From Streptomyces roseus (GTDB taxonomy: Bacteria > Actinomycetota > Actinomycetes > Streptomycetales > Streptomycetaceae), in NCBI RefSeq assembly GCF_001044425.1, contig NZ_LFML01000159.1, forward strand, positions 1 through 64,000: DNA of 64,000 nt. Direction: 5' to 3'. The notes beneath the pieces were generated by a model, which did not search any database, was not told where the DNA came from, and saw only the letters and a program-made list of their open reading frames with translations. Shown here in pieces: positions 60,221 to 64,000 of the stretch. Position numbers and translations under genes: made by a program. Numbering within the stretch: the stretch's first letter is position 1; every line of letters begins with the position of its first letter.

Positions 60221-61048
60221 CTAGCTGTATTGACCCGGAGGGTTGTTCACGCGGCTGATGGGCGGGTGGCCGTCGAGTGCGGTGTGGCAGCGGTGGTGGT
60301 TGTAGGTGTGGAGGAAGTCTGCCAGGGCTTCGGTCCGCTCGGCGTTCGAGGTGTAGGGCCGCAGGTAGGCCCACTCATCGAGGAGGGTGCGGTTGAAGCG
60401 TTCGACTTTGCCGTTGGTCTGGGGGCGGTAGGGGCGGGTCTTCTTGTGGGTGATGCCGGCCGCGACCAGCGTCTGGGTGAAGAGTCTGGATTTGTAGCAG
60501 GAGCCGTTGTCGGTCAGGACGCGTCGACGGTGATGCCATGGTGGGTGAAGAAGGCTTGGGCCCGTTGCCAGAAGCCGGCTGCGGTCTCCTGCCGTTCGTT
60601 GGCCAGGACCTCGCTGTAGGCGAGGCGGGAGTGGTCGTCGACGGCGGAGTGGATGTAGCTGTAGCCGATCACCGGTGTGGAGTTCTTGCGCTGGTCGGTG
60701 GTGGCTTGGCGGTTGCGGTCGCCTGCTGTTCGGCCCACGGCCCGCCAGCCGCCGCCGTCGGGGATGTTGCCGAGTTTCTTGATGTCGAGATGGACCAGTT
60801 CGCCGGGTCGGGCCCGTTCGTAGCGGCGGATGATCCGGCCGGTGGGCCGGTCTAGGAACGCCAGGCGGTTCAGGCCGTGCCGCAGCAGGATCCGGTGGAC
60901 CGTGGAGGCGGGCAGGCCCACGATCGGGCCGATGCGGGCGGGGCCGAGCTTGCGATCGGTCCTCAGGCGGCAGACCTCGGCCTCGATTACGGCAGGGGTG
61001 CGGTGCGGGGTCGCATGCGGCGTGCTCGGGCGGTCGTGGAGTATATAA
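60221..61048 (-). pseudogene. IS481-family transposase, truncated and frameshifted
   Basis: Two minus-strand frames together encode an IS481-type DDE transposase. The first part (61048 down to about 60523) gives RPSTPHATPHRTPAVIEAEV, GPARIGPIVGLPASTVHRIL, HLDIKKLG, SAVDDHSRLAY and HHGITVD, then stops at 60514. The second part continues in another frame with VLTDNGSCYKSRLF, RPYRPQTNGKVERFNRTLLDEW and the normal end at 60221. One G missing near 60521-60523 explains the switch. The N-terminal HTH region is absent, cut off where the next element begins at 61049. It should be inactive. Confidence 0.88.
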
Positions 61049-62102
61049 AACTGCCGGACGTTGGTTACACATGGGTCTTCGAGTAGACGGAGATCTGCCA
61101 TGCCCCCTTCGCTGCAACAGCAGCAGGACCGTCAGGCCCAGCATCGCCTGGCAGTCCTGCGCCACGCCGAGGAAGTCACCGGGAACGTCGCGCTGACCTG
61201 CCGCTACTACGGCATCAGCCGCCCGTGCTTCTACAAATGGCTGCACCGCTACCAGGACGAGGGCCTCGAAGGTCTGCGGGACCGCTCCAGCAAGCCCCAC
61301 CACTGCCCCCACGCCACCGAGGCAGACGTCGTCAACAAGATCGTCTACTTGCGGCAGCACTACCACTTCGGCCCGATGAAGATCAAGATGTACCTCAAGC
61401 GGTACCACGACATCGACATCGCCTGCTCCGCCGTCTACCGCATCCTCAAGAAGCTCGGGATGAACCGCCTGCCGGCCTCACAGCGCTACACGCGGCACGA
61501 CAAGCGCTACACCCGCTACGAGAAGCAGCAGCCCGGCAACCGCGTCCAGATCGACGTAAAATTCATCGAACCCATCGTCCTCCCGAAACACACCCCAGCC
61601 GCGGTTCCGGTCACCGCAACGCTGCCCAAACGGCGGCGACGAGCGAAGTACTACCAGTTCACCGCCATCGACGACTGCACCCGGCTTCGGGTCCTGCGGA
61701 TCTACCCGCGATGCGACCAGAAGACCGCCGTGCAGTTCCTCGACTACGTCCTGGAGCGCCTGCCGTTCCGCGTCGAGGTGATCCAGACCGACAACGGAGC
61801 AGAGTTCCAGTCCGCCTTCCACTGGAACGTCCTCGACAAGGGCATCGCCCACACCTACATCAAACCGGCGTCACCGCACCTCAACGGCAAGGTCGAACGC
61901 TCCCACCGCATCGACGCCGAGGAGTTCTACCGCATGCTCGACGGCGTAGTCATCGATGACACCGGCGTCTTCAACGACAAACTCCGCGAGTGGGAGGACT
62001 ACTACAACTACCACCGCCCCCATGGCTCCCTCGGCGGCCAAACACCCTACGAACGCCTCAAGCAGAAGGCCCAGACCCCGGTGTAATCGAGCTACGGCAG
62101 TT
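61049..62102 (+). mobile_element. IS481-type insertion sequence
   Basis: About 1054 bp, bounded by imperfect 22-bp inverted repeats at 61049-61070 and 62081-62102 (17 of 22 match; both start AACTGCCG from outside). It holds one transposase gene whose stop lies in the right repeat. No target-site duplication is seen: left flank GTATATAA, right flank GCACACCT. This suggests loss of flanking DNA on one side. Confidence 0.8.
61100..62086 (+). CDS. IS481-family transposase
   Basis: The 328-aa protein has an N-terminal helix-turn-helix (LAVLRHAEEVTGNVALTCRYYGISRPCFYKWLHRYQDEGLEGLRDRS), an rve catalytic core with Asp in QIDVKFIEP, TAIDDCTRLRVLRIYP, Asp in IQTDNGAEFQS and Glu in LNGKVERSHRIDAEEFY, and the C-terminal YYNYHRPHGSLGGQTPYERL. 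All DDE residues are present and the frame is intact, so it may be active. ATG at 61100 is the most likely start. Confidence 0.93.
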   Translation: MPPSLQQQQDRQAQHRLAVLRHAEEVTGNVALTCRYYGISRPCFYKWLHRYQDEGLEGLRDRSSKPHHCPHATEADVVNKIVYLRQHYHFGPMKIKMYLKRYHDIDIACSAVYRILKKLGMNRLPASQRYTRHDKRYTRYEKQQPGNRVQIDVKFIEPIVLPKHTPAAVPVTATLPKRRRRAKYYQFTAIDDCTRLRVLRIYPRCDQKTAVQFLDYVLERLPFRVEVIQTDNGAEFQSAFHWNVLDKGIAHTYIKPASPHLNGKVERSHRIDAEEFYRMLDGVVIDDTGVFNDKLREWEDYYNYHRPHGSLGGQTPYERLKQKAQTPV

Positions 62103-62222
62103 GCACACCTAGAGGACATCGCTGCCAACGGCCTGCCCGCGGTGGAGGACTGCACCCCCTGGGAAGAGCTCCGCGAGGCCCACCTGGCCCGCCTTGCCGC
62201 GCAACGCCCGGCCGTCGCCTGA
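62103..62222 (+). pseudogene. Antitoxin 3' fragment cut by the insertion sequence
   Basis: Thirty-nine codons in frame from the right end of the insertion sequence: AHLEDIAANGLPAVEDCTPWEELREAHLARLAAQRPAVA. The stop overlaps the next ATG as TGATG, the usual toxin-antitoxin junction. Size and position suit the C-terminus of an antitoxin; its DNA-binding N-terminus and promoter are gone. Confidence 0.65.
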
Positions 62223-62518
62223 TGACCACACGTCGCGCCCGCATCGCCTTCTCCGACTCAGCAGCCAAGCAACTGGAGAACATCACCAGCGAGGCGGAAA
62301 TCCACGCGCTGGACCGCGCGCTGGTGGTCATCTCCGTCGACCCCGAGATCGGCGAGCCGATCCCCGGCGATACCGCCGGCCGCCAACTGCGACAGTACGC
62401 CGACGAACTCGAAGCCGTCCGCATCCTGTACTTCGTCACCGCCCTGCGCACGCTCGTAATCTCGGGTCGGGAGCGAATTAATGCTGGTCAGGGACGTGTG
62501 CACATGGCAGTGACATAA
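62222..62518 (+). CDS. RelE/ParE-like toxin, possibly altered C-terminus
   Basis: The 98-aa product resembles a RelE/ParE toxin: ARIAFSDSAAKQLENI at the start, then GDTAGRQLRQYADELEAVRILYFVTALRTLVI, which matches the family's terminal strand pattern. The last 18 residues (SGRERINAGQGRVHMAVT) do not look like the family, so the 3' end may have been replaced. The antitoxin gene in front is destroyed, so the toxin may be unexpressed or inactive. Identification is by pattern only. Confidence 0.6.
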   Translation: MTTRRARIAFSDSAAKQLENITSEAEIHALDRALVVISVDPEIGEPIPGDTAGRQLRQYADELEAVRILYFVTALRTLVISGRERINAGQGRVHMAVT

Positions 62519-62555
62519 GGGACGTTGGAGCGATAGGCCTACTGCTGGTGCGGGG

Positions 62556-63152
62556 TCAGAACAGTGTCCCCGGGGCCTCCGGCTCATCTGGGTTGGGCTC
62601 GACGGGGCACTCTTGGAGTGGGATGTTCAGGTGCTGAGCCATCGAGGCCAGCTCCGCGTATCGGGCGACCAGGGCATCGCGCTTCGCTGTGAGGTGCTTG
62701 CGTTGGAGGCTTTCGGCGGTGTTCTCCAGAGCGGTGGCCAGTTGGAGATGCGCCGGATTAACGCACCCTCGGCGGGCGCATGTGTGGTGGAGCTGCGCGC
62801 CTTCGGGGATTTTCCCGAATTTGGACTCATAGGCGAATCGGTGAGCGAGCTGCCTTTGGGTCCCGTCGGGTGTGTCCCAGGTCCACATCCCGTAGCGGTC
62901 CTCGTCGTCCCGTGACGCGTCCGGGATCTTCGCACCAGACCACAGCTGGCAGTCATCCGGCCCAGTAACGACCTTCTTCCAGAAACGCTCCTCAACGGTG
63001 CCGGTATCTATCCGGTGTCGGACGGCGAGAGGGTCACCGTTGGTGTTCAGTCGATAGAGGTGCTTCTTGCAGTAGCCCTTGCCGGCGTGCTTCCCCTCGC
63101 AGCCCTCGATGCCACAGCCGCGAGCTTCGCGTTCCTTAGGCCATCGAGGCAT
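62556..63152 (-). CDS. Zinc-finger HNH endonuclease B
   Basis: The 198-aa protein has an N-terminal C-C-H-C/H zinc-binding region (CGIEGCEGKHAGKGYCKKH), a linker TGTVEERFWKKVVTGPDDCQLWSG, and an HNH core AHRFAYESKFGKIPEGAQLHHTCARRGCVNPAHLQLATALEN with the H-H, C-x4-C, N and H residues. A helical Arg/Ala tail follows. GGAAGGGGG precedes the ATG at 63152. It overlaps the 3' end of the paralogous gene upstream by 17 bp. Similar phage HNH proteins cut DNA during packaging or homing. Confidence 0.85.
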   Translation of the reverse strand: MPRWPKEREARGCGIEGCEGKHAGKGYCKKHLYRLNTNGDPLAVRHRIDTGTVEERFWKKVVTGPDDCQLWSGAKIPDASRDDEDRYGMWTWDTPDGTQRQLAHRFAYESKFGKIPEGAQLHHTCARRGCVNPAHLQLATALENTAESLQRKHLTAKRDALVARYAELASMAQHLNIPLQECPVEPNPDEPEAPGTLF

Positions 63153-63795
63153 CGTTGCCCCCTTCCTGGTCGTCAATGGGAACATCCAGACCAAGAGCAG
63201 CCTCAAGAGCGGCAACGGCCGCGGTGAGCATCTCGATCTCACGCTCCAGGCTGATCCGCTGCTTCATCTCCAGGATGTTCGCAACGGCGTCGACGGACTG
63301 GAGATGGTCCGGGTTGGAGCACAGCCTCAAACCGCAGGTGTGGTGGACGACCCCCGACTCGGGCAAGGCGCCATGAGCCCAGCGATAGGCGACGTGGTGG
63401 GCATACTCAGTCGTCCACCTTCCATCGATCTTGACGCCTAGCTTGGGGTAGGGGCATCCCTTCGGTGACTCGGGCCAGAGCCAGTGGCCGTCAGGGGTGG
63501 GAATGACCTTCGCGAGCCATCGTTCCTCGATGGTGCCTCGGATTACCACTTTGGGGGCCACGGGCTGGCCTATCCGACGCTCGTTTGCGTCGTGGATCTT
63601 GCAGTAGCCGTTCGCGTGGTGTGGGCTCTCGCAACCCTTCACGTCGCCCCCGGTCCGCCCGTGGACCTGAACGCGCTCGATCTCGCCCCGCCGGTATGCC
63701 CTGCTCAAGCATGGGTTGCAGAGCTTCCGAGCCCACTGGGGCCGCTCGCAATCAGCCGCGGTGCACTTTTCGGTGCTTGGCGTGCGCTCCGCCAT
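63136..63795 (-). CDS. Zinc-finger HNH endonuclease A
   Basis: A 219-aa protein with two zinc-binding parts: a C-C-C-C finger (CTAADCERPQWARKLCNPC) and a C-H-C-H finger (CESPHHANGYCKIH). A linker GTIEERWLAKVIPTPDGHWLW follows, then an HNH core AHHVAYRWAHGALPESGVVHHTCGLRLCSNPDHLQSVDAVAN. It ends with a coiled-coil helix (EMKQRISLEREIEMLTAAVAALEAAL). It is clearly related to the next gene but has the extra N-terminal finger. ATG 63795 follows GAGAGG at 7 nt. Confidence 0.85.
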   Translation of the reverse strand: MAERTPSTEKCTAADCERPQWARKLCNPCLSRAYRRGEIERVQVHGRTGGDVKGCESPHHANGYCKIHDANERRIGQPVAPKVVIRGTIEERWLAKVIPTPDGHWLWPESPKGCPYPKLGVKIDGRWTTEYAHHVAYRWAHGALPESGVVHHTCGLRLCSNPDHLQSVDAVANILEMKQRISLEREIEMLTAAVAALEAALGLDVPIDDQEGGNDASMA

Positions 63796-63858
63796 GACGA
63801 GCCCTCTCTTCAATGGTCCCGTGGAGAGTAGCGGCCAGCAACGACAAGTGACGATGGA

Positions 63859-64000
63859 TCAGGCTAGCTGACCGTGATTCTGGCTGCGGATCATGCGGCG
63901 GAGGCTGGTGCGGGCGGCGCTGAGGTCGTCTTCGAGCTCGGCGACTCGCTGCTGGAGTTCCGCGTTCTGGGTGGTTGCCTGCCGTTCCGCTGTGGACAGT
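63859..64000 (-). CDS. Coiled-coil protein C-terminus (partial)
   Basis: Last 46 codons of a minus-strand gene entering from the right edge: a charged heptad-like helix with ERQATTQNAELQQRVAELEDD and the ending RMIRSQNHGQLA. It resembles the C-terminus of DUF6262-type proteins that accompany tyrosine recombinases in integrative elements. This is from memory and weak. Confidence 0.45.
   Translation of the reverse strand, partial: LSTAERQATTQNAELQQRVAELEDDLSAARTSLRRMIRSQNHGQLA

Follow-up and report, generated by a model that had tools for sequence, protein, structure and literature searches.

Free-standing HNH_3 endonucleases of phages (PF13392, phrog_3593) carry N-terminal zinc fingers, an E-R linker and an HNH core with a set of invariant residues, and the same features recur in the two proteins described here, HNH-A and HNH-B. 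In the phages examined these enzymes have no overlapping HNH partner, whereas the present genes form an overlapping pair within a transposon. Mycobacterium phage Corazon gp49 likewise has several fingers and a short C-terminal tail, but no HNH partner beside it. Enzymes of the I-HmuI and I-PpoI type use a single metal to nick or cut the defined site to which they bind. I-HmuI (PDB 1u3e) and I-PpoI, which are intron-encoded, gave the best, albeit weak, fold matches for the models of both proteins; in contrast to these enzymes, no intron was recognised at the HNH pair. The ShiLan-domain HNH enzymes, which are described as acting in homing in mycobacteriophages, also have an HNH core flanked by zinc fingers, but in the consulted part of their description they are encoded out of frame within a methylase gene and not as a pair (PMC11855218). 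The transposon itself has its closest counterparts in the actinobacterial Tn554-related transposons, which the consulted part of one source defines by a long and an ordinary tyrosine recombinase plus a third gene (PMC3414803). The recombinase pair, the TnpC-like gene and a preferred site are found in both (PMC3414803), and the present element may also share the 6-bp footprint that has been described for Tn554-related elements in the consulted part of a second source (PMC10214605). The present element differs from them in carrying an HNH pair, in sitting in a toxin gene and in having a long recombinase with conserved zinc-finger motifs.

The window that we analysed comprises the first 64,000 nucleotides of an 88,502-bp contig of Streptomyces roseus, and features beyond it are given by contig position. 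HNH-A (219 aa; 63136..63795) and HNH-B (198 aa; 62556..63152) are encoded on the minus strand, as are all parts of them listed below, and lie inside a 5,756-bp Tn554-family transposon that extends from 62456 past the window end to contig position 68211. Its in-window part (62456..64000, minus strand) was delimited by nucleotide comparisons, by its ends and by uninterrupted sites. Upstream of the pair and in the same direction are a DUF6262/TnpC-like gene identified by profile match (197 aa; contig 63859-64452, with its 3′ end, 63859..64000, in the window), the gene of a long tyrosine recombinase of 836 aa (contig 64442-66952) and that of a short one of 384 aa (contig 66949-68103), all on the minus strand and both recombinases above the Phage_integrase cut-off. 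These three genes overlap successively by 11 and 4 bp, and HNH-A follows 63 bp downstream of the DUF6262 gene. The Tn554-type gene set is therefore complete, with two adjacent tyrosine recombinases, one of them unusually long, and a TnpC-like gene, and judged by this gene set the element is an actinobacterial Tn554-related transposon. The preliminary description had placed the pair next to mobile DNA; the link is in fact closer, as the pair sits within the element.

Both proteins passed the Pfam cut-off of 24.8 bits for PF13392 (HNH_3), HNH-A with 32.7 bits and HNH-B with 44.5 bits, and matched the phrog_3593 “HNH endonuclease” family at 6.4e-22 and 1.3e-27, respectively. Their reading frames overlap by 17 bp. 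From the translation we read an N-terminal C4 finger in HNH-A, the upstream gene product (C11-x4-C16-x9-C26-x2-C29; 63709..63765), whose spacing is identical in the copy from S. goshikiensis described below; this is the extra finger that had been noticed earlier. Sequence comparison placed a second finger at C55, C65 and H68 (63592..63648), which is incomplete in the window because residue 50 is Gly in place of the Cys50 of the S. goshikiensis copy, the only close relative. HNH-B has a single CCCH finger, likewise read from the translation (C13-x4-C18-x9-C28-x2-H31; 63060..63116), of which C18 and C28 are invariant in the alignment of relatives; a similarity of HNH-B to the PF05551 zinc loop scored under the cut-off. 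By Pfam and alignment, the HNH core occupies 63277..63405 in HNH-A (H133, H152, C154, C159, N161, H164, N173) and residues 102-144 in HNH-B (62721..62849).

HNH-A and HNH-B are 38% identical over HNH-A residues 49-208, and the reading frames and alignment confirm two overlapping genes that have a finger, an E-E-R linker and an HNH core in common. The HNH-site residues H133, H152, N161 and H164 of HNH-A, like the corresponding residues of HNH-B, line up with those of 15 relatives. Across the 17 aligned family members, all nine invariant residues are kept in both proteins; HNH-A lacks one of the five nearly invariant residues, having His at position 134, where nearly all other members have Arg. 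Structure models of modest confidence (mean pLDDT 66.6 for HNH-A and 72.7 for HNH-B) predicted a long C-terminal helix in each protein, at residues 170-201 of HNH-A (63193..63288) and 141-174 of HNH-B (62631..62732). Heptads in these helices were not clearly above those of shuffled sequences (1343/2000 and 166/2000 shuffles reached the observed value), and the coiled-coil tail that had been thought special to the upstream gene was not borne out. The top Foldseek matches of both models were I-HmuI (1u3e; E = 0.004 for HNH-B and 0.02 for HNH-A) and I-PpoI, none of which passed E 0.001, and the homing-enzyme matches as a whole were weak (E 0.004-0.11, TM 0.23-0.36). A sequence search of solved structures was empty both for HNH-B alone and for a 5-row profile headed by HNH-A, and the NCBIfam profiles gave no HNH match for the pair. 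PADLOC returned only a weak “homing endonuclease” (HEase) match (2.6e-6 and 0.0021), with no known anti-phage defence model matched by the pair beyond it.

Relatives of the two proteins were sought by tblastn in 50,697 phage records, of which 479 had relatives of HNH-B and 103 relatives of HNH-A, all below 60% identity; by these matches, actinophages commonly carry members of the zinc-finger HNH_3 family. Among the phages inspected more closely, Corazon has the matched gene flanked by tail and lysis genes, Phasih and Murai have it between the tail chaperone and tape measure genes, and in Rousseau and Sarge it belongs to a replication module; both of these phages have further HNH genes, none of them adjacent to it. 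Phages can thus have clusters of nuclease genes, as shown by an annotated HNH gene of Rousseau, two genes from the matched one, that overlaps a small “recombination endonuclease VII” gene, and by the three dispersed HNH genes of Sarge. An annotated HNH neighbour was absent from the 300-bp flanks of 12 further phage relatives.

Matches to phrog_3593 (E<=1e-10) occurred at 67 places in 50 of 295 sampled genomes of the genus, and by coordinates none of the places outside the pair's own genome held an adjacent overlapping pair, although such a survey would miss partners more diverged than the cut-off. Two copies were separated by a RuvC-like gene in one genome (G022, by eye) and lay about 3.3 kb apart in another (G080). 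Close relatives of HNH-A, its own genome included, were present in 5/295 (E<=1e-8), 1/394 (E<=1e-12) and 3/395 (E<=1e-11) genomes of overlapping samples, and none of the other genomes showed a second match. The 72,556 plasmid records (E<=1e-5) gave two matches, one in S. goshikiensis and one in NBC_01483, where a single HNH gene stands beside a gene for a single-stranded-DNA-binding protein. Scans with peptide patterns of HNH-A and HNH-B, which depend on short, nearly exact peptides and would overlook distant copies, gave no match in genome contigs and 1 and 2 distant loci in viral contigs. These searches for further pairs and their neighbours, which had been suggested as a check, yielded one close copy, on the S. 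goshikiensis plasmid.

HNH-A is 39% identical to an HNH protein from the genus Streptomyces (G046), a similarity equal to that with HNH-B, and HNH-B is nearer to a protein of phage Nepra (45%) than to HNH-A. In a 38-row tree, from which three of 41 rows (Sarge55, 1191A and IMGVR_L080) had been dropped for want of a recognised core, HNH-A joined Corazon with support of 97/89, on long branches. An AU test did not reject a constraint that holds HNH-A and HNH-B together (p 0.147), and the two grouped (SH-aLRT 90) in a quick tree minus six long rows. The pair had been described as duplicated and diverged; on these trees, a tandem duplication as the origin of HNH-A and HNH-B is neither shown nor excluded.

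The close copy, comprising both genes with the same 17-bp overlap, is on a linear plasmid of S. goshikiensis B-1662 (NZ_CP140777.1; 107,687 bp), about 1.6 kb from the plasmid end, and both genes are annotated there as HNH endonucleases. Nucleotide identity with the window is 94.1% over 1,636 bp, and the HNH-A proteins are 96.3% identical. In the 12.9-kb stretch examined, the 3′ part of the DUF6262 gene, beside the pair, is the sole remnant of the transposase module. The HNH-side end of the element meets the other half of the toxin gene there, so the insertion appears, from this one end, to be the opposite way round. HNH-A differs between the two copies by 8 amino acids and HNH-B by 13, of which 9 are at or after residue 174, crowding towards the C-terminus. 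We counted 8 nonsynonymous and 14 synonymous changes in HNH-A (binomial p 7e-5) and 14.5 and 24.5 in HNH-B (p 3e-7, with the counts taken as 14 of 38), and dN/dS was 0.167 for each gene. Because nonsynonymous changes are fewer than neutrality predicts, both genes have been under selection for their sequence; part of the period of selection may predate the loss of the transposase genes in S. goshikiensis. The recurrence of the same pair and overlap in a second organism, with dN/dS of about 0.17 for each gene, argues that the pair is not a chance arrangement. Both genes are present in 2/2 known close copies, a very small number, so the notion of a conserved unit rests on a single comparison.

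The element interrupts a ParE/RelE-like toxin gene, recognised by its context and homologues (its match to PF15781 is weak, E 0.096), whose 5′ part is at 62222..62455 on the plus strand. The toxin reading frame continues into the element as far as 62518, and the last codons of its interrupted 3′ end are just right of 68211 (contig 68212-68242). At the insertion point the gene is intact in two plasmids, NBC_01276 and NBC_00637, and in most of the toxin homologues listed. We called the borders where nucleotide matches ended at the same places in independent comparisons: the genome G118 matched at 62109-62451 and 63878-64504, with a GNAT gene between the two stretches; the NBC_00289 plasmid matched at 63878-68235 (89%) and 62108-62490 (80%), with an AAA_33 gene in the corresponding slot; and the match to the S. 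goshikiensis plasmid began exactly at 62456. An inverted terminal motif is common to both ends of the elements. Six bases at the cargo end, compared by eye, differ among the three insertions (own, G118 and NBC_00289); they resemble the Tn554-type 6-bp footprint and may represent it. That the insertions differ among relatives points to past movement of these Tn554-family elements.

All three of these elements are inserted at the same point of the toxin gene, which is also hit in S. goshikiensis, as seen from one end, and in G176, as seen from its translation. By these comparisons the toxin gene is a repeated, preferred insertion site of these Tn554-family elements. A 60%-identical element in G068 sits in a different, pilin-like gene (by eye), so target choice differs between sub-lineages. 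On the other side of the toxin gene, a profile match identified an IS481-family transposase (61061..62086, plus strand), which stands back to back with a broken rve-domain transposase (60221-61101); the antitoxin gene that precedes the ParE/RelE-like toxin gene appears to be cut short by this IS481 copy.

The slot between the TnpC-like gene and the element end, which holds the HNH pair here, is filled differently in related elements: by the GNAT gene in G118, by the AAA_33 gene in NBC_00289, whose product also just passes the zeta-toxin cut-off, and by genes for unknown proteins in NBC_01562. In G110, for which no element end was found, the TnpC-like gene is directly followed by a Barstar gene. 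With other genes occupying this position in sibling elements, the HNH pair counts as one cargo among several. Neither an HNH motif nor a tblastn match to the pair occurred within about 1.5 kb downstream at any of 29 other TnpC-like loci of the genus (29 of the 43 other match rows were examined), so these elements do not typically include HNH genes. In the literature that we searched by titles and abstract openings, there was no description of an HNH pair carried by a Tn554-family element. The preliminary description had regarded the pair as the best candidate for an undescribed system; the HNH_3 family is already known, and what is unusual is an overlapping pair of its members in a transposon.

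The long recombinase has three N-terminal finger motifs (C4, CCCH-like and CCCH), which are kept in the four relatives that we could align, at 84.8% (NBC_00289), 82% (NBC_01562), 61% (G068) and 45% (G067) identity; four of the seven other loci tried gave no usable frame. In the consulted part of an earlier account, this N-terminal extension is described as being without recognisable domains (PMC3414803), and a literature search combining Tn554, zinc finger and recombinase found no paper. The fingers are of the same types, C4 and CCCH, as those of HNH-A and HNH-B. The protein also resembles GmtY of the gamma-mobile-trio, at 5.5e-5, far below the cut-off.

Taking these results together, we consider it fairly probable that the pair represents phage-type, homing-like HNH_3 endonucleases, derived from phages and turned two-gene cargo that an actinobacterial Tn554-family transposon uses or tolerates. 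The pair lies within the element, where it follows the recombinase genes in the same orientation and fills a slot of variable content. From here the function is inferred: the zinc fingers of each protein would recognise a specific DNA site, and the HNH site would nick or cut the bound DNA, by analogy with I-HmuI-like enzymes. The pair might then be kept for interfering with DNA that bears its sites, such as that of rival mobile elements or phages, or for spreading its own carrier. Against any such functional reading, the lost finger cysteine and His134 of HNH-A in the window fit decay or divergence as well as they fit function.

We weighed several other readings. The pair could be a heterodimeric defence nuclease in which each protein contributes an HNH site and different fingers to the cutting of invading phage or plasmid DNA, and we think this unlikely. 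The recurrence of the 17-bp overlap in two organisms, the purifying selection on both genes and the long C-terminal helix predicted in both proteins would all suit two subunits; but the helix lacks significant heptads, and phage Corazon has a similar architecture without an HNH neighbour. Direct support for a heterodimer is lacking and only parsimony speaks against it, which leaves the idea neither supported nor refuted; if the two did form a joint enzyme, they would offer a simple case in which to study the formation of nuclease pairs. A defence role is possible, its one argument being that near-relative elements carry accessory genes in the variable slot, including Barstar and the AAA_33/zeta-toxin-like protein, while PADLOC gives nothing beyond the weak homing-endonuclease match.

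We give equally low credence to the view that the genes are decaying selfish passengers with no current role. HNH-A in the window lacks a finger cysteine, and the pair is rare in the samples searched. The third-position GC of the pair (0.76-0.79) is also below that of the neighbouring host genes (0.92-0.97), as for arrived DNA, with the element's own genes in between at 0.83-0.89. Both frames are nevertheless intact in both copies, and the dN/dS values argue for constraint.

Less probable still is a role as an accessory of transposition, in which the pair would nick the target or ends of the element, or rival elements at the site, and so help the recombinases or guard the site. The shared orientation, the short distance to the TnpC-like gene and the conserved C4 and CCCH fingers of the long recombinase agree with this. 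But the transposase module does without HNH genes, given their absence from all 29 other TnpC-like loci; in the stretch examined from S. goshikiensis, the pair is still present beside no more than a fragment of the module; and the finger type is common in the phage HNH family. Because the finger types of HNH-A match those of the long recombinase, the pair may recognise DNA at the element ends or insertion site, and a more specific version, to which we attach little weight, would make it a transposon-encoded, two-part, site-specific nickase that promotes its own element by nicking sites that are empty or taken by a rival, and the element a nuclease-assisted Tn554-like transposon. A packaging nuclease pair of the kind that stands beside a terminase, as had been suggested, is very improbable, since, even though phage HNH proteins that can assist terminases are on record in the consulted part of one source (PMC11855218), no terminase-like gene was recognised by eye among the ORFs of contig 55000-88502, the flanks in the phages examined hold tail, lysis, replication and unknown genes and no terminase, and the genes are not confined to single occurrences in phages with packaging roles, as packaging was not seen and the pair recurs.

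We therefore return to phage-type HNH nucleases carried as a unit by a Tn554-family transposon, a pairing that looks rare. The cargo slot of Streptomyces Tn554-like elements merits a survey, and the toxin gene as a repeated insertion site and the finger motifs in the long recombinase extension have also come to light.

Elsewhere, the end of the contig holds a second ParE-like toxin fragment next to another DUF6262 gene (87605-88023), probably a further Tn554-like element cut by the assembly. Three related stretches at contig 72353-78672, with about 68-69% identity in two pairwise matches, encode secreted-looking proteins, two of which have an HNH-like D-x-D-H motif; the region looks like local copies of a nuclease gene. 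The linear plasmid NZ_CP109357.1 of Streptomyces sp. NBC_01562 begins at base 1 with the outer end of a Tn554-like element; either the assembly stopped at a repeat here, or a telomere lies at the edge of the element. In two cases, related elements lie a few kb from linear-plasmid ends, near terminal-protein genes, which suggests subtelomeric enrichment of these elements.
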